From: a virus
DNA: 21,679 bases
Strand: one strand, 5' to 3'
IMG/VR virus record: IMGVR_UViG_3300027784_001062
Location: 1 to 21,679 of that record
Of this stretch, positions 1,157 to 17,554 are shown in pieces. The position numbers were made by a program, and so were the translations under genes. Each line of letters starts with the position of its first letter. Within the stretch, counting starts at the first letter, position 1. The notes beneath the pieces are model-generated. The model had not been told where the DNA came from. It made no database searches and worked only from the letters and a program-made list of their open reading frames with translations.

Positions 1157-1609
1157 TTGCCGAGAAAAAATGTTTTAGGGTTGGATCCAGGCAAGACCAC
1201 CGGAGCTTGTTTTGTTAAGGTAAGCACCACAGACAGCACGTTCAAGCAGCCTTACCACAGTACAGAGTTACCATTGACGCAGTTAACTGCAGATACAGTC
1301 GAGGCTATGATAAAAACATACAACGCAGAAGAGGCAGTTATAGAGGATGTGGTGAAGTCAGGGCATTTATCAAGGGACAAGTTTAACCAGATAAGAGCGT
1401 TCGACCGGTGCGTTCAGGGATGTGAAAAGGCAAGTATTGACTACCAGATTATCACACCGGAATCTAGGAAACGAGGACAAGAACCTGCTCCAAAGTCTAT
1501 CGAAGGAAAGCACGCAAAAGATGCGTACCTAATTGCAGTCAGCACTACTGCTGGAGGGGATAACAATGCAACATCCGAGACTTCACCTGCTGAAGAAGAA
1601 GAAACTTAA
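1157..1609 (+). CDS. RuvC-like RNase H-fold nuclease (putative Holliday junction resolvase)
   Basis: This 150-residue protein starts at TTG, chosen because AAGGAGGGA lies seven bases upstream and the first strand of the fold follows at once. Residues 6-16 (VLGLDPGKTTG) give the first catalytic Asp (D10) with the glycine-rich turn of RuvC/RNase H-like nucleases. AVIEDVV places an acidic residue at E63, and KHAKDAYLIA near the C-terminus supplies H119 and D122. Together these fit the four-acidic-residue metal centre of the superfamily. The last 20 residues are an acidic Ser/Thr-rich tail. Given the neighbours (helicase, nuclease, recombinase), it probably resolves four-way or branched junctions made during recombination-dependent replication and before packaging. 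A general structure-specific nuclease is the alternative. It overlaps the helicase gene by 44 bases. Confidence 0.7.
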   Translation: MPRKNVLGLDPGKTTGACFVKVSTTDSTFKQPYHSTELPLTQLTADTVEAMIKTYNAEEAVIEDVVKSGHLSRDKFNQIRAFDRCVQGCEKASIDYQIITPESRKRGQEPAPKSIEGKHAKDAYLIAVSTTAGGDNNATSETSPAEEEET

Positions 1610-3272
1610 ACTGGGATTGTCAATCCCGCCGAGTGTAAACGGGGCAGCGAAGAGAATTGGAGGCAAGTGGGACAAAAAGAAAAGAATGTGGACGTTCCAG
1701 CCGGACCCGAACGTAATTCGTGAGATTCGGAGAAAAATTCCGAATCTCAAATTAACCCAAGAAGTAAATGATTGGCTAAAAGGAATAAAATCTGTACAAG
1801 ATAGAACAATGGACGCTGCCGAAGATTACAGGCAGATAGACGAGCACTTGTGGAGCTTTCAGAACGGGTCAGTTCGGTTTCTTTTGGAAGCGAAACGGTG
1901 CATACTTGGACACGAAATGGGACTCGGAAAAACCGTCATAACAATTTCTGCGATCAAAACAGAAAACCTGGGCAAAATTTTAGTAGTTTGCCCGGATCAC
2001 CTAAAGTGGACCTGGGGAGAACATTTCAAAAAGTGGGGAAATTTTGACCCAAAACAAATCACAATACTAGAAAGCCACAGGATAAGCAAAGGCAGTGATA
2101 TACAGTACAACATGATTTCAGGGAACACGACAAAAAGAGCAGAAAAACTACCGTCCGTACTCCACAGACAAAACGGCCCGGTCATTATGAATTACGATCA
2201 AATGCGGCTCCACAGCAAGATTTTACAAAACTTTCCGTACGATGTGATTATATTCGACGAAGCTCACAGGCTTAAAAATCGAAAGGCAAAGAGAACCCAG
2301 GAAATGTTCAAGATAGCCAAAAACACGGATTTCCTGTGGTTTCTAACAGGAACTCCAATCAGGACCTGCTATACAGATATTTGGACGTTGCTACACGCCT
2401 GCGATCCAGAAAGATTCGGAGCTTACTGGGATTTTGTGCATCTTTACACCGAAGCACTCGAAGCATTTCACGGCGGTATTGAAATATTGGGGCTCAGAGA
2501 TAAAGAAATATTTAATAGAACACTGTCCTGCTATATGCACCGAAAGACAAAACACGAAGTCATACCGGATCTTCCGGAGAAAATATTTGAAGAAATAAAC
2601 GTGCCGCTAAAGGGCGACCAGAAGCAAACCTACTACAAAATGGAGAAAGAATTTATTGCTGAAATCACGAAAAAAATGCAGGACGGTACAGAAATAGAGG
2701 ACATACTCACAGCTCCGAATACTATCTCGCAGATAACGAGGCTCCGGCAGATAGCACTTCATCCACACATTGTAAGTGCCAAGGGTAAATCGGGGAAGCT
2801 CGACATAATAGAAGAATTGATAAACGACATAAACGATCAACTGCTCGTATTCACATGGTACAAATCTTTCGTGCCGTTTATCGAATCGAGGATGGAAGAA
2901 ATGGGGGTTACGTACAGGTCAATAACTGGAGGGGTTACAAGCCAACACAGAAAACAATACGAGCAGGAATTTAACGACGATAAAGTGCAGGTAATAATAG
3001 GCACGATTGCAGCAATGGGAGAAGGGCTGAACCTGCAGAAATCTAAATACTCTATATTTACAGACATTGACTGGGTGCGGGCAACAAACAAACAAGCAGA
3101 GGATAGGATTCACCGTGGTAATATAAAAACGTCGCCCACAATCATAAGACTTTTGCACCCGAACACAATCGACGTTGACATTAAGAACAGTGAGCTGAAA
3201 AAGGAAAAGATAACGAATGAAAGCATGGGCAGGGTGGAAGCAATTAGAAATATGCTTTCACGAAGAAGTTAA
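1566..3272 (+). CDS. SNF2-family DEAH-box helicase/translocase
   Basis: This is a 568-residue superfamily 2 helicase of the SNF2 group. The start at 1566 is chosen for TGGAGGGG seven bases upstream; a TTG 33 bases earlier lacks a site. Residues 20-46 (including KWDKKKRMWTF) resemble the N-terminal accessory segment of SMARCAL1/HARP-type proteins. The motor contains motif I GHEMGLGKT (115-123), motif II DEAH (231-234), motif III LTGTP (260-264) and, in the second RecA-like lobe, the GEGLNLQ segment of motif V and motif VI with Q510, R514 and R517. Such enzymes track along duplex DNA using ATP and can anneal strands or regress forks. Next to the nuclease and recombinase genes, it probably remodels forks or joint molecules. 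The family call is firm; the exact substrate is not known. Confidence 0.92.
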   Translation: MQHPRLHLLKKKKLKLGLSIPPSVNGAAKRIGGKWDKKKRMWTFQPDPNVIREIRRKIPNLKLTQEVNDWLKGIKSVQDRTMDAAEDYRQIDEHLWSFQNGSVRFLLEAKRCILGHEMGLGKTVITISAIKTENLGKILVVCPDHLKWTWGEHFKKWGNFDPKQITILESHRISKGSDIQYNMISGNTTKRAEKLPSVLHRQNGPVIMNYDQMRLHSKILQNFPYDVIIFDEAHRLKNRKAKRTQEMFKIAKNTDFLWFLTGTPIRTCYTDIWTLLHACDPERFGAYWDFVHLYTEALEAFHGGIEILGLRDKEIFNRTLSCYMHRKTKHEVIPDLPEKIFEEINVPLKGDQKQTYYKMEKEFIAEITKKMQDGTEIEDILTAPNTISQITRLRQIALHPHIVSAKGKSGKLDIIEELINDINDQLLVFTWYKSFVPFIESRMEEMGVTYRSITGGVTSQHRKQYEQEFNDDKVQVIIGTIAAMGEGLNLQKSKYSIFTDIDWVRATNKQAEDRIHRGNIKTSPTIIRLLHPNTIDVDIKNSELKKEKITNESMGRVEAIRNMLSRRS

Positions 3273-3291
3273 GAAGAAGGGGGGAATCACT

Positions 3292-4320
3292 ATGGAATTT
3301 GACAGCTTTAACAATCATGTCGAACCATCGAATACAATTATTTTGCGGGCGAGCGAACTGCCTAAATTCCGAGAGTGTCCACGAAACTGGTACTTTCAGA
3401 ACGTCATGCGGCTTGAACCGTTGAGAAAAGATAGAAAACTCCGGTTTGGTGCCTGCCTTCACGAAGCACTTGAACAGTATTACAAAACTTATGAAATCGA
3501 ACAAGCAAAAGGTGTATTCATTAGGGAAACAGACAAGGAACTGGAAAAACTGATGGAGAACTTGGGTCCTGAAATTTACGAAGCAGAGAAAGATAACATT
3601 CAAGAGGACATAGACTTGGGCGAAGGACTGCTGGATTTGTACCCAGAAAAGGCAGAAGAATTGGACCCGCCGGACAGCGAGTTGCAAATAATTGAAACAG
3701 AATACCGGTTTCTCGTACCTATCGGAGAGTACGCAGACAATACAGTTTATCTGGCAGGGAAACTGGATGCGATAGCAAGAGACAGCTACGGCGGCGTGTG
3801 GGGTATTGAACACAAGACTATGAGCAAATCATCGGATGTGGAAAACCCAGAAAACTTGGTGCTGGACCTGCAAACGACGATACAGATAATGCTGCTTTCT
3901 ATATATTTCCACAATGCTATGGGCGGAGCTCAAAATGTTATGGGAGATTTGTATAACTTGATAAGAAAACAAAAACCCGGGGATAGAGTTAAGAAAAAAA
4001 TATATGGTCGGCACAGGATAAAAAGAACAATGACGGAACTTCAAATACTGCACAATCTAATATTGAACGAGGACACTCCAAGGATAGAACAAATTAAGTC
4101 AAAACCTGTGGAGAGGGTTCCTTACAATCCACAAATATTCGGACGCTGTGCTTGGGGATGTAGTTACAGAGATCTATGCGAGTCAGTTATCAGGGGAGAA
4201 GATACAGAATACCAAGTGAAAACGAACTATAGAGTCAAACAGAAATCAATTTACGAAACACTGCAGGACGAACTGGCAGGTCAAGAACCCTTATGGGAAA
4301 AATGGGAAAAGGAGGGATAA
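3292..4320 (+). CDS. Cas4/RecB-like PD-(D/E)XK nuclease with Fe-S cluster motif
   Basis: This 342-residue protein starts at 3292, after the site AAGGGGGGA; an ATG inside the end of the helicase gene has no site and is not used. The catalytic core is H57 (GACLHEAL), D159 (GKLD) and E173-x-K175 (IEHKT), the order seen in RecB/AddB/Cas4 nucleases. One early cysteine (C29 in FRECPRNW) and three late ones (C286, C290, C296 in GRCAWGCSYRDLC) form the split four-cysteine pattern that holds a 4Fe-4S cluster in AddB and Cas4. The protein is probably a single-strand exonuclease or end-processing nuclease that makes substrates for the Sak4-like recombinase gene downstream. Its C-terminal Lys-Glu-Gly is encoded by the next gene's ribosome binding site. 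No CRISPR locus is nearby, so a role in spacer acquisition is not suggested. Confidence 0.88.
   Translation: MEFDSFNNHVEPSNTIILRASELPKFRECPRNWYFQNVMRLEPLRKDRKLRFGACLHEALEQYYKTYEIEQAKGVFIRETDKELEKLMENLGPEIYEAEKDNIQEDIDLGEGLLDLYPEKAEELDPPDSELQIIETEYRFLVPIGEYADNTVYLAGKLDAIARDSYGGVWGIEHKTMSKSSDVENPENLVLDLQTTIQIMLLSIYFHNAMGGAQNVMGDLYNLIRKQKPGDRVKKKIYGRHRIKRTMTELQILHNLILNEDTPRIEQIKSKPVERVPYNPQIFGRCAWGCSYRDLCESVIRGEDTEYQVKTNYRVKQKSIYETLQDELAGQEPLWEKWEKEG
4309..4320 (+). promoter_or_regulatory. Ribosome binding site fused to upstream stop codon
   Basis: AAGGAGGGATAA encodes the final Lys-Glu-Gly-stop of the nuclease and serves as the ribosome binding site for the ATG at 4324. It is identical to the cassettes at 142-153 and 1142-1153. 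Confidence 0.75.
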
Positions 4321-4323
4321 ATC

Positions 4324-5091
4324 ATGGCAGAAGAGCAGGCTAGACAAGTGCCAGAACTTCCGTTTATGGAGAATTTGGGAAGAGGTGGGGAAGAAGTTAC
4401 CCACAAGGATCATTTGATTTTTGGCCGAAGCGGTGCCGGTAAAACTTACTGGATAAGCACAGCACCACAGCCCATTTACTTAATCTCGATAGACCCTAGG
4501 GGACACATGACATTTCCCTACCAAACGCCAGGATTTGTAGCACAGAATGTGAACCAAGTCTTGCAAGCACTGGCAGCACTAGAAGCAGGAGCAGGAAAAG
4601 AAATTTCCACCGTAGCATTAGATGGGTGGGATTGGTTCTACAATATGTTAACGAGAGAAATGGGATGGTACCTGCACAACGAAGAAGGAACAAAAGACCC
4701 CGATTTAATGCCTATACATGGATACAAAAAGGTAAACAATTTACTGTTCAACACAATCCGGAGGTTTGTAAATCTTACACAGCTACACGATAAAGAAGCA
4801 AGAGTACACTTTATCAGCACCGCACTGGACGAAAGACTAAAAGAGGACGACGAGGCAGAGTTTTTGGTGAGGCCGAATGTAGGTTCTGATACTGTAAACA
4901 ATCAAATAGTAAAACTGTTCTCTATTGTGACTTACATCTGGCCGCTTGGAAAAGATAACAAGGGGAACGAAACTGATGACCGTGGCGTAATAGCTGATGA
5001 AGTATCGTACATTCAGGCCAAAGACAGGTTTGGTATCTTCCCAAAAATGGGCGTGGCAGGTAAGCTGGAAGAATTATATAATCAAAATTAA
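4324..5091 (+). CDS. Sak4-like RecA-fold ATPase (phage single-strand annealing recombinase)
   Basis: This is a 255-residue AAA/RecA-like ATPase. Walker A is GRSGAGKT (34-41) and a Walker B strand ends at D100 (STVALDGWDW). The short single-domain RecA core and the position directly before a DUF669 gene match the Sak4 group of phage recombinases. Members pair homologous single strands with help from their partner ssDNA-binding protein. Expected partners here are the upstream nuclease (which makes single strands), the DUF669 protein and the RuvC-like nuclease. The ribosome binding site lies inside the end of the nuclease gene, which couples the two. A generic phage AAA ATPase of unknown role is the weaker alternative. 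Confidence 0.82.
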   Translation: MAEEQARQVPELPFMENLGRGGEEVTHKDHLIFGRSGAGKTYWISTAPQPIYLISIDPRGHMTFPYQTPGFVAQNVNQVLQALAALEAGAGKEISTVALDGWDWFYNMLTREMGWYLHNEEGTKDPDLMPIHGYKKVNNLLFNTIRRFVNLTQLHDKEARVHFISTALDERLKEDDEAEFLVRPNVGSDTVNNQIVKLFSIVTYIWPLGKDNKGNETDDRGVIADEVSYIQAKDRFGIFPKMGVAGKLEELYNQN

Positions 5092-5105
5092 GGAGGAATG
5101 TTTCT

Positions 5106-5735
5106 ATGTCACTTAAAGAAAAGCTAGGGAGTATTGACTTTACAGGGGTACAGCCAGCCGGTGGAGCACTGGTAGATAAGGGCAGATACCCTGTAGAAAC
5201 GACAAGATGGCGTGCATACGAAAAAGAGGACACAGGAAACGTAGTTATTATGATTAACTACAAAATAATCGACGGCAAGTTTAAAGGCGAAGAACTGGTA
5301 GATTTTCAGGTAGTAACCGGGGAAGAAGATAACAAGAGATTTCTATTGGCACTGTTCAGCAATTTAGGGATAATTACAAGAGAAGAAATTTCGCAGGACG
5401 GTTTGAAATGGGAGTTTACTTTTGGCGACCAAGACGAGAACGGTAGAACAGAACTGACCGGTGCTAAAGTAGCTGGAGAAAAGCGATCCATTATCGGCAG
5501 GAAAGCAATCGCACAGGTAGGTCACAGAACTGATAACGAAGGAAACAAGAGAAACGATGTGCGGCGTGTGGAAGCATACAGGGAGAACTTCAAGCCGGAG
5601 ATAGATAAAGAGCAGGCATCTCCACTGGGTGGACAGCCACCTAACCAAAACACTGCACCTGGAGACGGGAACGCATCTGGACAAGCACAGACTCCCTGGA
5701 GAACCACACCTCCAAAAGACGGGATGCCTTACTAG
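5106..5735 (+). CDS. DUF669 single-stranded DNA-binding protein
   Basis: This 209-residue protein follows a strong AAGGAGG site. Residues 1-115 show the DUF669 pattern: GRYPVETTRWRAYEKED, then the strands VVIMINYKIIDGKFKGEELV, then NKRFLLALFSNLGI. The family acts as a phage single-strand DNA-binding protein and usually accompanies Sak-type recombinases, as here. Residues 170-209 form a low-complexity linker rich in Gly, Pro, Gln and Asn. The chain ends KDGMPY, which resembles the DDxPF tip by which bacterial SSB recruits partner enzymes, although the run of acidic residues is missing. The gene is followed by a hairpin terminator, so the first part of the replication operon ends here. Confidence 0.82.
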   Translation: MSLKEKLGSIDFTGVQPAGGALVDKGRYPVETTRWRAYEKEDTGNVVIMINYKIIDGKFKGEELVDFQVVTGEEDNKRFLLALFSNLGIITREEISQDGLKWEFTFGDQDENGRTELTGAKVAGEKRSIIGRKAIAQVGHRTDNEGNKRNDVRRVEAYRENFKPEIDKEQASPLGGQPPNQNTAPGDGNASGQAQTPWRTTPPKDGMPY

Positions 5736-5814: not shown

Positions 5815-7776
5815 ATGCGTGATTTGTGGGAAAACATTCTGCACAAAATATGGGGAGATCAAGGAGAAGGATTTGCGTTTATAGCTTACAGGATGTCCAG
5901 CGGGTATTTTAAACAAACACCATTTCCTTATCCGGACCACATGGGAGCACTTCTGGATCACCTGGAAGAAGCAAACAAGTGGGCAGATATTTACTTTTGC
6001 CCGCACCTGTTTACAGAAGCTAGAAGGCAAAAAGATGCAGTTAAACATCTGAATGTTCTGTGGGTAGATAAGGATAAAGGAAAACTTCAGGATATACAAG
6101 AGCCAAAACCTACATTCTTGTGGGAAACTTCTAAAGGAAAATACCAGGCAATTTGGAAAATAAAACAGTTAGAAGATCCCAAAAGGGTAGAAAGACTCAA
6201 TCAATATCTTACTTACAAAACCAATTCGGATTCCGGTGGATGGCACTTGGGAAAGTTCTTGCGATTGCCCGAATCTCTAAACCACAAGTACAGTCCACCA
6301 CAGGAAGGGAAATTAAAAACAAAGAACGGTCCTGAATACGTGATTGAGGATTTAGAGCCTACCGAAGATGATATGAAAGACCTGATCGAAGAATATAAAG
6401 GATCCGACAAAACAGAAATGCCGGAATCACTCCCCCCACTAGAACAGATATTCCTACAGTACGGTAAAGATATACCCCCAATCGCATGGAAAATTATAGA
6501 GACTGAACCAAAAGAAGGCGACGATTGGAGTGCACAACTGTGGCGGTTGGAAAGGCTTTTAAGAGAAGCTGGACTGCCGCTTGAAGCAACATTTCAACTG
6601 GTGAAAAACTCACCGTGGAACAAGTACGCAAGGGATAACAGATCAGATAAGGATTTGTGGAATGATGTTTCCAAAGCGTACAGGTATGGGGCACCGGAAG
6701 AATTTAAGGACGGCATGAATTGGAGCAATATCGGTGATTTGATATTGTACCAGGAAAAACCAGAATGGCTTGTGGACGAAATTTGGATGGACAAAAATGT
6801 GGGGTGGCTTGCAGGCGTTGGTAAATCTTATAAAACTGTGCTTTCGCTCGATCTTGCACTCTCTATCGCCAGTGGCAAACCTTTTTTGGGAAAGTTTCCG
6901 GTGAACAAGCCCGGATCTGTATTGATGATACAGGAAGAGGATCCCAAGTGGCGGCTTGCCCACAGGGTTAGAATCATGGCGGATCAGAAAGGGATTACCA
7001 CGATGAAAACAGAGTTCATGCCGAACAAACTGGTGGTAGAATATGGCGGGTTGAGCATCCCTTTTTACACAGCTGTGGGGCAAGGATTTTTGTTTGAGGA
7101 CCAAGAGAAAATACAGGCTGTAGAAGAAGCGATCGAAGATTACAGACCACAGATGGTTATATTTGATCCACTGTTTATGATGACTCCAGGTTACGATGAA
7201 TACAAATCTGGAGAAATCACCAGGGTTCTGAACCAGCTAAAATACTGGAGAAATGTTTATGGCTGCAGTATATGTGTGGTACACCATTTCAATAAAGACT
7301 CGCAGCAGGGAGATTATACACAGAGATTGTACGGGAGCATGGCTCTCTATGCGTGGAGCGAAAATTCGCTGTTTGTGGAGAAACAGCGTGATAGCAATAT
7401 AGCTATGATTCAAAGAGATATTAAAGACGCACTGGTGAGCGAAAAAATATCGGTTGAATTTTTAGAACTGGACGACCGGTACGAGTTTGAAGTACGAGAT
7501 GATCTAGCTAAAGCAGAAGGATACGATAAAAACTCTAACAAGGGGAAGGTCATCCGATACCTTATGAACCACACGCCTGGAAGCTCAATTACGCACAAGC
7601 AAATAAAGCAGGCTCTAAATGTGGCTGATCGGAGCCTGCGTGATATAGTAGATGAGCTAGAAAGTGAAAACGTAATAATCAAAGAGCGTAAAGGCAGAGG
7701 CGGTCAAACAGTCATAACCACGACCACAAGATTATTCGACGAATACGGAGAAAGGGGGTTGGATTTAAGGTGGTAG
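5815..7776 (+). CDS. Primase-helicase fusion: AEP-type primase plus RepA-like RecA-fold helicase
   Basis: This 653-residue protein starts after AGGGGAGGA. The N-terminal third resembles archaeo-eukaryotic primase/RepB-type primases: LWVDKDKG gives D85 and D87, followed by ETSKGKYQAIWKI and RLPESLNHK, both characteristic of phage and plasmid prim-pol proteins. The middle is an AAA_25/RepA-like helicase core. Walker A is AGVGKSYKT (333-341), Walker B ends at D451 (MVIFDP), and VVHHFNK follows as a sensor-like motif. The tyrosine at 339 replaces the usual glycine of GK[ST]. Residues 573-640 look like a winged-helix domain that could bind the origin or a partner. The protein would unwind phage DNA and lay down primers for the polymerase gene downstream. 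The helicase assignment is firm, the primase assignment somewhat less so. Confidence 0.85.
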   Translation: MRDLWENILHKIWGDQGEGFAFIAYRMSSGYFKQTPFPYPDHMGALLDHLEEANKWADIYFCPHLFTEARRQKDAVKHLNVLWVDKDKGKLQDIQEPKPTFLWETSKGKYQAIWKIKQLEDPKRVERLNQYLTYKTNSDSGGWHLGKFLRLPESLNHKYSPPQEGKLKTKNGPEYVIEDLEPTEDDMKDLIEEYKGSDKTEMPESLPPLEQIFLQYGKDIPPIAWKIIETEPKEGDDWSAQLWRLERLLREAGLPLEATFQLVKNSPWNKYARDNRSDKDLWNDVSKAYRYGAPEEFKDGMNWSNIGDLILYQEKPEWLVDEIWMDKNVGWLAGVGKSYKTVLSLDLALSIASGKPFLGKFPVNKPGSVLMIQEEDPKWRLAHRVRIMADQKGITTMKTEFMPNKLVVEYGGLSIPFYTAVGQGFLFEDQEKIQAVEEAIEDYRPQMVIFDPLFMMTPGYDEYKSGEITRVLNQLKYWRNVYGCSICVVHHFNKDSQQGDYTQRLYGSMALYAWSENSLFVEKQRDSNIAMIQRDIKDALVSEKISVEFLELDDRYEFEVRDDLAKAEGYDKNSNKGKVIRYLMNHTPGSSITHKQIKQALNVADRSLRDIVDELESENVIIKERKGRGGQTVITTTTRLFDEYGERGLDLRW

Positions 7777-7871
7777 CATTTTCTTACTGCCCTATTTGCA
7801 ACTGCAAAGATTTTGTGTTTCAAGAAGGTTGTGTTAAGTGTGCAAATTGTGGATACTCCCTTTGCGGATAG
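7770..7871 (+). CDS. 33-residue zinc-knuckle peptide
   Basis: A GTG start at 7770 lies about nine bases after GAAAGGGGGTTGG and opens a 33-codon frame ending at TAG 7869-7871. The peptide holds seven cysteines among 33 residues, in the order CPIC, NC, GC, KCANC and LC, ending in CGYSLCG. That is a compact zinc-ribbon pattern and far from random. It overlaps the end of the primase-helicase gene by 7 bases and fills the gap before the polymerase, so it fits the operon. The function is unknown. A small zinc subunit or adaptor for the primase or polymerase is one possibility, by position only. Confidence 0.6.
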   Translation: MVAFSYCPICNCKDFVFQEGCVKCANCGYSLCG

Positions 7872-7906
7872 TTACTAACAAAACTAACAATTTTGGGAGT
7901 GGTTTT

Positions 7907-10303
7907 ATGGTTATTGAGAGCAGGAAGATTGAGCCTTTGTTCGAGCCAGCATACTGTAGTAGCTGCAGTTTGCAGAGTGAGAAGAACATCATCCCAAAAG
8001 GAAACAAGAACGCTAAACTTTTTATTGTAGGAGAGGCTCCTGGATACTGGGAAGGCGAACTTGGACTCCCCTTTGTGGGGAAATCGGGCAAACTTCTGGA
8101 TCAGATTATAGATTTTTGTGGTATAGATTATAACGACTGCTATTTTACCAATGCCGTTATGTGCAGACCGGAGGGGAACAGAAACCCTTCTGCAAGTGAG
8201 TTAAAATGTTGCCTAAACAGGTTGAAACTGGAACTTGAAACAGTAGATCCTGATTTAGTGCTGATTCTTGGAGCAGTTTGCGGAAGGATGTTGATTAATG
8301 ACTACACTAGAATGAACGATGAGATCGGAAAAATAAAACAGACAGTCACAGGACACGATTCCCTTATGTGCTACCACCCGGCAGCAGTATTGTACCCTAA
8401 AGGAGAAGATAAATTTTTAACAGTCACACATATATTCCACAGGGCAAGACGGTTAATATACGGTGAACATTCAAAACACAAATACAATGGAACTAAAGTT
8501 CACCACATCCATGACAGAGAAGAATTGAAAAAATCGTTTGACTTCTTGGAGCAAAACGCCACAGAAATTTCTTACGATTGGGAAACTTTTGGCGTGGGTT
8601 ATGCAAGTGCAGAAGGAGTTTATCTAGGAATGGCTTGGGAACCGGGGAAATCCATTGCTTTCCACAAATCTCTTATGGATAGCGAACTCCGAGAACAGTT
8701 TAATAAATTAATGCGTGAAAAACGTACGATTGCATTTAATGCGTCGTTCGACTCCAATATTAACATACTGGAAGGACTAGAACCCGGGCTGGACGAAGAT
8801 CCCATGCTTATGCACCACGGGTTGGACGAACGTCCACAGAAAAGGAACTTGGAATCTCTGGGAGAACTGTATTTAGAAGCACCAAACTACGAATCTGAGA
8901 TGCTTCAAAAGTACAACACGACCAAAAACCAGTTTATGCACGTTGTGCCAGAACAGGAGATACTGGAGTATGTAGGTATAGATGCTGACATAGGACTGCG
9001 GTTAAAGCACTGTTTTCAAGAAGAATTAGAAAAACCTAAAAACGATCGAGTCCAAAAGTGCTACCAGAACTTGGTTATTCCAGCAGCTTCTGTTTTTCGT
9101 GACGTGATGCGGTACGGTATGTATGTAAACCAGGAAAGATTGACAAACAAGATAGAAGAAGTTTTTTGGAACGTGAATGAGTACAGGAATGAAATTAGAG
9201 ACATTGTAGGAGACGAAAATTTTAACCCTAACTCGCACAAGCAGGTACAGGAATACCTATGGGATACCTTGAAACTGAAAGAGCCCAACATATACGGCAG
9301 AAAATCAAGATCGGCAGATCAAGAAACAAGAGAAGCACTTATGCAAATGTACCCAGAAAACAAGTTTGTTAGAGCACTCCACGATTACAAAGATGCCTAC
9401 ACTTATTACAGCAGGTACTTAAAAAGTCTCGGGCAACATATAGAAGATGACGGCAGGGTGAGGGCAAACTTTCACTTGGACAGAACAGAAACAGGCAGGT
9501 TATCTACCACGTCTCCCGCACTACATCAAATGCCTAAAGCGTACGGTATCAAATCTATCTTTGGAGCTCCAGAAGGTTCTAAACTAATCCAAGCAGATTA
9601 CGAACAAATCGAGATCAGGATGGCAGGACACATAGCACAGGATAAAAAACTAGCAGAGCTCGTAAATTCTGGAGTAGATTTTCATACAAAAATGGCGAGT
9701 GAGGCGTTTAATACCCCTGTGGACGAAGTGACAAAAGATATAAGAGGAGCTGCGAAAGCAGTCTCTTTTGGACTATTATACTTGATGACCGAAGAAAAAC
9801 TGGCAGATTCTACAGGATTGTCACAAAAAGATGCTAAAGAGTTTGTCAAAAACTATAAAAAGTTAATGCCTTCAGTAATGAAATGGATCGAGGCAATCAA
9901 ACAGCAGGTCCGAGAGAAAAAATACGTAGAAAGCATATTTGGACGCAGGCGTAGATTCCCGTTTATACACAAAGGCAATATCCACGGCATTGAAAGGGAA
10001 GCTGTAAATATGCCAATTCAATCTAGTGCCAGCGATCTAACTTTGTGGAGCACAGTTAAACTGCACAATATTTTTAAGCAATACTACAGAGAGAAAGTTA
10101 AAATTGTATTAACCGTACACGACTCTATTATTATTGAATGTCCAGATGAATATGTAGAAGAGGTATGCCAATTGGTAAAAGATGTAATGGAATCACCACC
10201 TTTTAAAAGTAACTTCGAATTTGAAACAGAAATTAAGGTGGGTCAACATTGGGAAGAGGGTGAAATATGGACACCTGATATAAAAGAACGTGTAGCACAG
10301 TAA
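7907..10303 (+). CDS. Family A DNA polymerase with N-terminal family-4 uracil-DNA glycosylase
   Basis: This is a 798-residue fusion. The ATG at 7907 follows GGGAGTGG; an in-frame GTG 69 bases upstream has no site and would add residues outside the fold. Residues 1-190 are a family-4 uracil-DNA glycosylase: the iron-sulfur cysteines C17, C20, C86 and C101/C102, the active-site motif GEAPG (42-46), LPFVG (54-58) and the YHPAA motif (156-160) are all present. Residues 195-375 are a DnaQ-like 3'-5' exonuclease with DxE (D224, E226), N278/D282 and Y355-D359. The rest is a Pol I palm/fingers: TGRLSTTSP, motif A D564-Y-E, motif B R613/K617/F621/Y625 and motif C H738-D739-S. It is the replicative polymerase of this phage. 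No intron or intein interrupts it. Confidence 0.95.
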   Translation: MVIESRKIEPLFEPAYCSSCSLQSEKNIIPKGNKNAKLFIVGEAPGYWEGELGLPFVGKSGKLLDQIIDFCGIDYNDCYFTNAVMCRPEGNRNPSASELKCCLNRLKLELETVDPDLVLILGAVCGRMLINDYTRMNDEIGKIKQTVTGHDSLMCYHPAAVLYPKGEDKFLTVTHIFHRARRLIYGEHSKHKYNGTKVHHIHDREELKKSFDFLEQNATEISYDWETFGVGYASAEGVYLGMAWEPGKSIAFHKSLMDSELREQFNKLMREKRTIAFNASFDSNINILEGLEPGLDEDPMLMHHGLDERPQKRNLESLGELYLEAPNYESEMLQKYNTTKNQFMHVVPEQEILEYVGIDADIGLRLKHCFQEELEKPKNDRVQKCYQNLVIPAASVFRDVMRYGMYVNQERLTNKIEEVFWNVNEYRNEIRDIVGDENFNPNSHKQVQEYLWDTLKLKEPNIYGRKSRSADQETREALMQMYPENKFVRALHDYKDAYTYYSRYLKSLGQHIEDDGRVRANFHLDRTETGRLSTTSPALHQMPKAYGIKSIFGAPEGSKLIQADYEQIEIRMAGHIAQDKKLAELVNSGVDFHTKMASEAFNTPVDEVTKDIRGAAKAVSFGLLYLMTEEKLADSTGLSQKDAKEFVKNYKKLMPSVMKWIEAIKQQVREKKYVESIFGRRRRFPFIHKGNIHGIEREAVNMPIQSSASDLTLWSTVKLHNIFKQYYREKVKIVLTVHDSIIIECPDEYVEEVCQLVKDVMESPPFKSNFEFETEIKVGQHWEEGEIWTPDIKERVAQ

Positions 10304-14485: not shown

Positions 14486-17400
14486 TTAACCCCTCCATTC
14501 TCTTTCAGGGCCCACATCAACGTGTACGTGTCCATCTTCATAGATTCCTATGCCTGGAAAGTATTCCTCGGCTGCGTCTGCTAATTCTTCTGGGCTTATA
14601 CCTTCAGCTACTATATCTGCTGCCTCTCCGGTAATGTGTCTGGATTGATCTGCTCCTCCTATTTGTTCGTTATACTCTGGAGTTCTGTACCCTGAAGTTA
14701 CGTGGATAGGAACTCCAAGATCCTCCCTGAGCTGGTTAAGTCTAGTTATCAAATCTGTAGAAACCTTTACCTCCCCTGTATCTGGAGAAGCAAATTCTCT
14801 AGTGTCAAAGTATCCTATTTGTCTCGGCTCAGTGATAGTTTCCCCCACTTCATCGCCGTTAACGAAACCCAAATCATCCTCCGGTGGTTCGTATTCTACA
14901 TCATAACCTTCTCGTGTAAAATGTTCACGACGTAAAGGTTGTTCTACTTCATCCAAGTTAAATATTGCACCTGTCATTTCACGAAAAGTTTCTGTGGCAT
15001 CCACTGCTTTATTTCCTGACTGCCTTCTCAACTCCGGATCTATCTGTGGGCTTTGAGCTTCGTTTATATCCTGTTTAATGGTTGCTACCGACTGTCTTAT
15101 CGGACTTGCTACATCTTGTGGTAACTGTGCCTGTGCGTATTGTGATAAAATATCCAATCTGTTTACTGCACCGGAAAAGTCTGCATCTGCTGGATCGTCG
15201 TATTCTTCCATCTGTTCTTGGACTGCTTGCCCTATCATTCCTAACTCTTGTTCCATCCACATAGCTAGTTCAAACTGTTCTGGGCCGAACTGTGCTGTTG
15301 CATCTGCTGCGTCTTGGATTTGTTGTTCTTGAATATCTAACTGCCGGGAATATTTTTCCTTTTCCATCTCTAATTCTTTTTCTCTAAATTGAAGTCCTGC
15401 TATAGTTTCTAGCTGATTTAACTGGTGATCTGCTACCATAAAGGCATTTTCTATCTCTCGCTGTTTCTTTTGACTGTCAAATTCCATAAAGTCTATGAGA
15501 GAATTTACTGTACCCGCTTTTTGTGCTACGTTCATTTCCATCAAATCCTCTTTACTCATACCCACCTCTCTCAATTCCTGCTCCACGGAAGGATGGTGAA
15601 CGAGAGAAGCTACGCCTGACATTTCACCTTGCTGTACTATCCAATCACGTTCCGCCTGTACTTCTTGTGTACGCATACGCCTATCTTCCATTGCCAGCTG
15701 TGCCTCTTTGTACCACTGATCTAGCCTCATTTGATCGGCCCAACGTGCAACTTCCATGTGCATATTAGCCAATCTTTCCCTGCGTTGTCTCTCTTCTGCC
15801 ATCATCTCTCTTCTGACAACTTCTTCTTCTAGGACAGCCCACTGTTCTATATCCCTTAAATCAGCACGAAGTTCTGCTACTTGGTTTGCTGCATCCCTAG
15901 AAATTTCAGCTATTTCTTCCTGTGCCTGCTGATCCAGTTCTGTAAGCGAATTTGCCATAATCGAGCTGTAGAACATACCTCTGGCTGACATCTCTTCCTG
16001 AACGTCTGTCTGCATCTCTTGGGTTACACTTTGGATATTTTCTTTAGCTTGCTGAAACTCTTCCGGCCATTCCCGCTTGAACCTATCCAGCTCTCTTTTG
16101 ATAGGTTGTTTCTTGTCCTGTGCCTGCCTTTCCACAATCGCCCTTGCATGTTCTTGTATTTCTTCACGGCTTCTCGGTTCTAAACCGTACTGTTGAGCCA
16201 TTTCATTAAAGAAATTTTCATCTACTGTAGGTTCAGGCGGTACGTAATCGTCCATAGGTGCTTGTGTTAAGTATCCGGGTTCAGCAAAATCCATCCCCTC
16301 TGATATTTCTTCTACTTCCGGGTCGAACTCTTCCGCAGGGGTAGGTGGTTCTATGACACCTGCTGTTTCCAGTATTCTTTCCATTCGATCCCTGTGGGCA
16401 TACGCTCTGCCATCTCTTATCACATCAGTTCTAAATGTTACATCGTCCTCTGGTCCGCTTATTGTTATTTGTTCAGTTTCGGGGTCCCATTCCACATCAG
16501 CACCTGCTGCCTCTGCTACTTCTCTAACTGGCGTTTCCACATCTTCGGGATCTGCACCTACCTGTCTGAGTATATCTCTGAACGGATCTTCTTCAGGTAC
16601 TTCTGCTGGAGCCACGGGTTCTTCTATACCCATTGTTGACCTTAAAACAGCGTCTAACCTGTCGCCTGTAACGAAAGCCCTTCCGTCCTGTATTTCGTCC
16701 GGACTTACAGTTCTTGCACCTTCAGGACCTTCCACAGTTACCTGCCTCGTGTCGGGGTCCCAATCTACCCGGGCTCCCATCTGTTCTGCTATTTCACGAA
16801 TTGGAGCTTGATCCTCTCTTGTAACACCTACCTGCCTGAATGTTTCATCGACGGGATCTGGTTCTGCGGTTTCTTCTACTTGTGGCTGTGTGTCGTGTAC
16901 CTGTGCTTCTCTTAATGCTTGTTCTGGTCGCTGAACATCTTGTAATGTTGTCCTCTGCATCTGTTGAACCTGTTGTCTTATTTGATCCTGCATCTGTCCC
17001 GTTTGCTGATCTGCCACTTGACCTGCCTGTTCAAATTCTTCCTTTATTTCTTCCTTTATTCTATCGGCACCTATTTGCCCCATACCACGTAGTTTTTGCA
17101 GTCCTTCTTCTACGGATTCATCAGCATAAATGGGTTCGCCTCCAAGCTGTTTAATCTGCTGCCTCAAATTGTTCGCTGCCTGTTCTAACTGCCTTGTTCT
17201 TTCTTCGTCATCCTCCCTGTGGATAGCAATTTTGTGCGATAAAATTGCTTCATTTAGCTGGTCGATAATACGTGGGGTCATATCACCTGGATCTACGTCA
17301 ATTTCTCCTTCTTTGCCACGTTCACGTCTTAATCTTTGTTCACCTATATCCTGAAGCTGTTCGGAAAACTCGTCTCTCGGCTCTTTATCTAGGTTATCTA

Positions 17401-17554
17401 AATTCCTTCTACCTTGATGTCTTTGCGGCCCTCTTTGTACTCCTGCTCTTCTTTTGTCCTGTTTCATTCTTGATCTTCTTTGAGTTTGCCTGTTCGGATC
17501 CACAGACCCTGTATCCCGTAGATAGTTCATAATGTTGTCTATAGGATCTGGCAT
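14486..17554 (-). CDS. Internal virion protein with duplicated stalk domain and C-terminal M15 peptidase
   Basis: This is a 1022-residue protein. The ATG directly abuts the stop of the gene upstream (TAAATG), with GGAGGGTGG as binding site. Regions in order: a basic Arg-rich N-terminus (22-80); Gln/Glu-rich helices (100-230); two tandem copies of a copper-amine-oxidase-N-like domain (235-310 and 323-400), each with P[IV]RE[IV]AE..GA.V.WDP; an acidic Pro-rich linker (400-445); a very long Glu/Gln-rich coiled coil (450-790); and a D-Ala-D-Ala carboxypeptidase-like M15 domain (933-1020). Zinc ligands H973 and D980 (SRHITGEAADI) and H1011 (HVHVDVG) are intact. It probably leaves the virion with the 1335-residue protein and cuts peptidoglycan cross-links during DNA entry. 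A tail-tip lysin with a structural stalk is the alternative. Confidence 0.75.
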   Translation of the reverse strand: MPDPIDNIMNYLRDTGSVDPNRQTQRRSRMKQDKRRAGVQRGPQRHQGRRNLDNLDKEPRDEFSEQLQDIGEQRLRRERGKEGEIDVDPGDMTPRIIDQLNEAILSHKIAIHREDDEERTRQLEQAANNLRQQIKQLGGEPIYADESVEEGLQKLRGMGQIGADRIKEEIKEEFEQAGQVADQQTGQMQDQIRQQVQQMQRTTLQDVQRPEQALREAQVHDTQPQVEETAEPDPVDETFRQVGVTREDQAPIREIAEQMGARVDWDPDTRQVTVEGPEGARTVSPDEIQDGRAFVTGDRLDAVLRSTMGIEEPVAPAEVPEEDPFRDILRQVGADPEDVETPVREVAEAAGADVEWDPETEQITISGPEDDVTFRTDVIRDGRAYAHRDRMERILETAGVIEPPTPAEEFDPEVEEISEGMDFAEPGYLTQAPMDDYVPPEPTVDENFFNEMAQQYGLEPRSREEIQEHARAIVERQAQDKKQPIKRELDRFKREWPEEFQQAKENIQSVTQEMQTDVQEEMSARGMFYSSIMANSLTELDQQAQEEIAEISRDAANQVAELRADLRDIEQWAVLEEEVVRREMMAEERQRRERLANMHMEVARWADQMRLDQWYKEAQLAMEDRRMRTQEVQAERDWIVQQGEMSGVASLVHHPSVEQELREVGMSKEDLMEMNVAQKAGTVNSLIDFMEFDSQKKQREIENAFMVADHQLNQLETIAGLQFREKELEMEKEKYSRQLDIQEQQIQDAADATAQFGPEQFELAMWMEQELGMIGQAVQEQMEEYDDPADADFSGAVNRLDILSQYAQAQLPQDVASPIRQSVATIKQDINEAQSPQIDPELRRQSGNKAVDATETFREMTGAIFNLDEVEQPLRREHFTREGYDVEYEPPEDDLGFVNGDEVGETITEPRQIGYFDTREFASPDTGEVKVSTDLITRLNQLREDLGVPIHVTSGYRTPEYNEQIGGADQSRHITGEAADIVAEGISPEELADAAEEYFPGIGIYEDGHVHVDVGPEREWRG
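14495..14758 (-). other. M15 peptidase (VanY/DD-carboxypeptidase-like) domain
   Basis: Residues 933-1020 of the 1022-residue protein read as the M15A fold: VTSGYRTPEYN, then SRHITGEAAD, then GIGIYEDGHVHVDVG. All three zinc ligands and the following Asp of HVD are present, so activity against cell-wall peptide is expected. Confidence 0.8.
16355..16588 (-). repeat. Stalk domain copy 2 (copper-amine-oxidase-N-like)
   Basis: Residues 323-400 of the 1022-residue protein: DILRQVGADPED, then PVREVAEAAGADVEWDPET, EQITISG and DGRAYAHRDRM. It aligns along its whole length with the copy at 16625-16852. Confidence 0.7.
16625..16852 (-). repeat. Stalk domain copy 1 (copper-amine-oxidase-N-like)
   Basis: Residues 235-310 of the 1022-residue protein: ETFRQVGVTRED, then PIREIAEQMGARVDWDPDT, RQVTVEG and DGRAFVTGDRL. 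The 'P-[IV]-R-E, G-A, W-D, DGR-A' pattern is that of the copper amine oxidase-like N-terminal stalk domain, widespread in surface proteins of Bacillota. Confidence 0.7.

Follow-up and report, generated by a model that had tools for sequence, protein, structure and literature searches.

The window, as we refer here to the entire stretch of DNA analyzed, is a 21,679-base linear record from a virus of microbes, in which the replication module is encoded on the + strand and the structural genes on the - strand. ORF analysis of the window delineates a single open frame for a protein of 798 amino acids that starts with the ATG at 7907 and ends with a stop at 10303, with an alternative upstream start, GTG 7838, possible within the stop-to-stop frame (Table 1). 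As proposed in the initial annotation, this one frame joins a uracil-DNA glycosylase (UDG) to an exonuclease and a polymerase, in that order. The Pfam matches to the UDG (PF03167, aa 30-169, E 2e-27) and to the polymerase (E 7e-90) exclude chance similarity for these two domains.

Table 1. Features of the polymerase gene and the adjacent replication genes in the window
Feature	Coordinates	Strand	Evidence
SNF2 helicase, Cas4-like PD-(D/E)XK nuclease, Sak4-like ATPase, DUF669 protein (rest of replication/recombination module)	1533..5735	+	Profile matches
Primase-helicase-like protein (RepB primase / AAA_25), directly upstream of polymerase	5815..7776	+	PF13481, weak PF16793
Candidate ribosome-binding site GGGAG for ATG 7907	7895..7899	+	Shine-Dalgarno-like, putative, read from the sequence
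UDG-exonuclease-family A DNA polymerase fusion, 798 aa	7907..10303	+	Single ORF; Pfam PF03167+PF01612+PF00476; AlphaFold2
Family-4 uracil-DNA glycosylase domain, aa ~15-187	7949..8467	+	TIGR00758, PDB matches by sequence and fold, residue mapping
3'-5' exonuclease domain, aa 200-375	8504..9031	+	PF01612 E 1.6e-6
Family A polymerase domain, aa 412-784	9140..10258	+	PF00476 E 7.3e-90; Foldseek

The exonuclease and the polymerase had been described as intact, and the catalytic motifs, as read by eye, agree with this assessment: the exonuclease residues D224/E226, D282 and D359 are all in place and are invariant in alignment A4, and the polymerase motifs DYEQIEIR (564-571), RGAAKAVSFGLLY (613-625) and VHDS (737-740) are uninterrupted. 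The AlphaFold2 model of the full protein is confident (mean pLDDT 91.5, pTM 0.88), and the Foldseek matches of the polymerase domain are to Klenow/Bst Pol I (best E 4e-37). The 798-aa protein is most likely the replicative family A polymerase of the phage, with the UDG located where cellular Pol I has its 5' nuclease.

By sequence and by model, the N-terminal domain is a family-4 UDG with an apparently intact active site. Its domain score against the NCBIfam model TIGR00758 (UDG_fam4) is 131.9 bits, above the cut-off of 125.3, and the top PDB matches by sequence are 1ui0, 1l9g, 1vk2 and 4zbx, family-4 UDGs of Thermus, Thermotoga and Sulfolobus. Structure prediction and comparison with family-4 enzymes, suggested earlier as a check on this region, recovered the glycosylase fold: the AlphaFold2 model of the domain alone is confident (pLDDT 89.5), its best Foldseek match is 1ui1 (E 1.7e-17), with 1ui0, 1l9g (TM 0.79/0.82) and UdgX close behind, and the fold match to the UDGa of Thermus, Thermotoga and Sulfolobus has a probability of 1.00. 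The earlier delimitation of the glycosylase to residues 1-200 is right in that the domain is N-terminal, whereas its end has to be moved to near 187, as residues 1-200 include the linker to the exonuclease.

All four Fe-S cysteines (C17, C20, C86 and C102) are present and align with positions 13, 16, 84 and 100 of Thermus UDGa, and the GEAPG and YHPAA motifs are found at 42-46 and 156-160, respectively. The uracil pocket of Thermus UDGa is lined by E41, E47, F54, N80 and H155 (PMC5387724); the equivalent set in the window protein, E43, E49, F56, N82 and H157, is complete, and N91, the counterpart of the water-positioning N89, is kept as well. Substitutions in Thermus UDGa lower k2/Km from ~7-fold (N89A) up to >1000-fold (H155S) (PMC5387724), and because the pocket residues concerned are conserved, the UDG of the window is predicted to be active. 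The motifs, TIGR00758, the pocket mapping and the fold thus all concur with the initial annotation of an apparently active family-4 UDG with four Fe-S cysteines, and the protein probably excises uracil and carries an Fe-S cluster. Identity with UdgX, which is distinguished by GEQPG with Q53 and a KRRIH R-loop (PMC10359453), was rejected: the domain has GEAPG instead, contains no KRRIH stretch anywhere, and scores 97.8 bits against TIGR03914, below the cut-off of 189.95.

The nearest relative is encoded in IMGVR_UViG_3300027784_000588 (L106), a short fragment from an uncultured virus, and is 41% identical across the full protein. Every pocket residue in L106 is the same as in the window, and the gene order matches on both flanks of the polymerase, including an identical arrangement of the SNF2 helicase, Cas4-like, Sak4-like and DUF669 genes. 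An orthologue of the primase-helicase neighbours the fused polymerases of both L106 and a shorter fragment, L024, in which it is directly followed by a UDG-bearing frame. In the window, 130 bases separate the primase-helicase from the polymerase. A 33-codon frame with a GTG start (7770-7871, + strand) lies between the two genes and encodes the cysteine-rich peptide CPICNCKDFVFQEGCVKCANCGYSLCG, which matches the C-terminal end (last 28 residues) of a ribonucleotide reductase family in PHROG (E 2e-5) and reads as the zinc-ribbon tail of such an enzyme, encoded here on its own; a pattern search found no similar motif in the other loci. We also observe a small protein (1157-1609, + strand), conserved in L106, with a weak match to the Holliday-junction resolvase family phrog_1770 (E 4e-5), and, among the structural genes, a large protein (14486-17554, - strand) with an M15 peptidase at its C-terminus in addition to copper-amine-oxidase-N-type matches. 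Neither an AP endonuclease nor a dUTPase was recognized within the 21.7 kb fragment.

In a tree of fused and other polymerases, of the kind called for in the initial annotation, the window is sister to L106 (100) amid mostly fused phage polymerases, and the two pair again in the UDG tree, which suggests that the two halves of the protein travelled together. The window falls outside the SPO1-type polymerase clade and, with its cysteines and pocket intact, is not SPO1-type. For related fused pairs where the ratio was computable, the window not being among them, dN/dS of the UDG domain is ~0.03-0.31, a rough guide only because dS is saturated between many pairs. In the clade of L028, L039, L040, L047, L052 and L068, dS of the UDG part is often 2-3x lower than that of the polymerase part (0.80 versus 1.68 for L047/L052), which could be due either to exchange of the UDG segment by recombination or to an error caused by saturation.

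The statement that the fusion is not unique, with SPO1-type phages as the relatives, holds in that SPO1 does carry it, and understates the case. When IMG/VR was searched with the exonuclease-polymerase part only, so that the query did not favour the UDG, a UDG was recognizable in the polymerase frame of 55 of the 78 further nearest polymerase loci; a few of the remaining loci are cut by contig ends. Among annotated records, the fusion is present in SPO1-like, Serratia, Pseudomonas, Yersinia and Brevundimonas phages and in Thermus phage phiLo, as well as in uncultured spring phages and one methanogen virus. A scan of contigs in genome assemblies identified 80 UDG ORFs, none of which is fused to a polymerase. 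Searches with the window protein alone or with an alignment of pocket-altered proteins yielded few matches.

Across 117 distinct fused ORFs, the residues equivalent to E41, E47, F54, N80 and H155 are all kept in 83, at least one is altered in 28 and 6 are not classifiable, proportions that lean towards intact pockets because the UDG-alignment search relied on a peptide pattern that includes F54 and was ranked by likeness to the window. The intact or altered label changes ~10 times on the polymerase tree, a rough number given that the tree was built quickly and many of its forks are weak. The four cysteines are retained in 24 of the 28 pocket-altered proteins; H155 is lost in 15 proteins, two of which belong to the six unclassifiable ones, and 14 of these 15 still have all four cysteines. 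Because the cysteines outlast the catalytic pocket, the UDG domain probably has a further function that does not depend on catalysis and for which it is maintained, such as holding DNA; the conservation of the pocket in most of the other fused proteins points to excision as well.

In a clade of fused polymerases that consists of L141, L150, L153, L156, L175, L181 and L116, the four cysteines of the UDG are present, (S/A/G)RSPG replaces GEAPG and NP replaces HP; these domains could be specific for another base, or for no base at all. The SP-15 contig (L101) has two UDGs in one genome, a family-4 enzyme encoded by a gene of its own and a degenerate domain attached to the polymerase. UDG and polymerase have been joined separately a second time in Rhizobium phage RHph_N1_15 (L019:3001-6489), in which a DNA polymerase III alpha-like protein ends in a degenerate UDG-like domain (residues ~1007-1144).

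We lean, with modest confidence, towards a dual role of the replicase UDG, as a DNA-binding arm and as an enzyme that excises uracil near the fork. Under this scenario, the domain would be a permanent additional DNA-binding arm of the replicase, and in the window lineage it would remove uracil close to the replication fork, where uracil might arise through cytosine deamination in exposed single strands or through dUMP incorporation. The resulting abasic sites might then be handed to host repair or to the Sak4/Cas4-like recombination module of the phage itself. The gene, its domains, the predicted fold, the intact pocket and cysteines, and the conserved genomic setting form the basis of this reading; we infer the DNA-binding role, the timing and the hand-off of abasic sites, and the dual role is in part deduced from proteins of other lineages. 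An argument against it is that an active glycosylase on a single-stranded template would create blocks for its own polymerase, and the lack of a recognized AP endonuclease or dUTPase in the 21.7 kb fragment also counts against it. If excision is real, the replicase brings its own base-excision starter, and the polymerase must avoid copying over the abasic sites that are made.

A purely structural role also has to be considered, and we view it as doubtful. The domain would then be only a structural or processivity module, by analogy with the poxvirus replicase, where vaccinia D4 is a known glycosylase that serves as part of the processivity factor (PMC5682278), and the intact pocket would be an inherited relic with excision unimportant. 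The repeated alteration of the pocket, in most cases without loss of the Fe-S cysteines, would fit such a scheme, as would the persistence of SPO1-type domains from which both cysteines and pocket are gone, but a complete pocket in the majority of diverse fused proteins and in L106, at the level of divergence noted above, is not expected of a relic. The survey provides matched intact-pocket and altered-pocket fused enzymes, the direct comparison of which could separate catalytic from non-catalytic roles. A more elaborate idea, which we put forward as an unlikely one, is that the UDG is gated by the polymerase, such that it excises only in certain replication states, and that the pocket has been rebuilt repeatedly (for example, SRSPG+NP versus GEAPG+HP) so as to accept a different base or solely to bind DNA, which would make it a replicase-borne base-scanning domain of changing specificity.

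Archaeal family B polymerases have a uracil pocket that binds template uracil and thereby stalls the polymerase. The fused UDG might similarly act as a read-ahead sensor that binds uracil in the template and stalls the polymerase with little or slow excision, and its physical linkage to the polymerase and intact recognition residues are compatible with such a function; however, the catalytic residues H157 and N91 are retained too, although they would be dispensable for mere sensing, and we regard this possibility as improbable. Finally, we consider it highly improbable that the fused UDG serves phages with replaced thymine or large dUMP pools, with the pocket state following a thymidylate-synthase/dUMP-hydroxymethylase cassette: the first altered-pocket proteins found all adjoined one of these genes, and Serbin/PMBT14-type and SPO1-type phages do combine the cassette with an altered pocket, but in the larger locus set the pocket is intact in 18 fused polymerases that have a cassette, many altered-pocket ones lack a cassette, no association is seen among independent pairs in the tree, and the search of the window, L106 and L024 fragments found neither such a cassette nor any relative of thymidylate synthase, deaminase or dUTPase.

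Among characterized systems, Bacillus phage SPO1 gp31 and its relatives have the same domain order in one gene as the window. Unlike in the window, the Fe-S cysteines are lost, F54, N80 and motif 1 are changed and most of the pocket is gone, and gp31 lies near a dUMP hydroxymethylase gene. Being degenerate, the SPO1 domain is a poor model for the intact window protein and the wrong protein for activity testing. The polymerases of Serratia phage Serbin, Pseudomonas phage PMBT14 and Yersinia phage P744 show the same fusion as the window, with the cysteines and the histidine kept, and have related primase-helicase and Cas4-like neighbours (and an SNF2 helicase in PMBT14), but their pockets are altered (GD-PN, F54 to G, N80 to P). 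In addition, the space between the primase-helicase and polymerase genes, which in the window is just the short gap, holds a thymidylate-synthase/deaminase cassette in Serbin-type phages. In our literature search, the fusion was explicitly described only for Pseudomonas phage PaBG gp205 and the Lupandier group, reported in 2020 to have an N-terminal UDG, a 3'-5' exonuclease and a polymerase, with the UDG modelled on 1ui0 (PMC7412058). These phages are likened to the window from their description and, unlike it, are jumbo phages in which the 5'-3' exonuclease is a separate protein and Pol III clamp/clamp-loader-like genes are present (PMC7412058). The polymerase of Thermus phage phiLo is a solved UDG-family A fusion (PDB 9qhs), entitled 'phiLo family-A DNA polymerase with modified template', for which a literature search found no paper; its pocket is intact except for N89 to S, whereas at 1142 aa and with a remote sequence it differs from the window protein. 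In vaccinia D4/A20/E9, a glycosylase is likewise tied to a replicase (PMC5682278), a likeness in principle only, as these are separate proteins with a family B polymerase and a UDG of another family. The architecture is thus already known and common among phages, and the window protein is a well-preserved instance of it.
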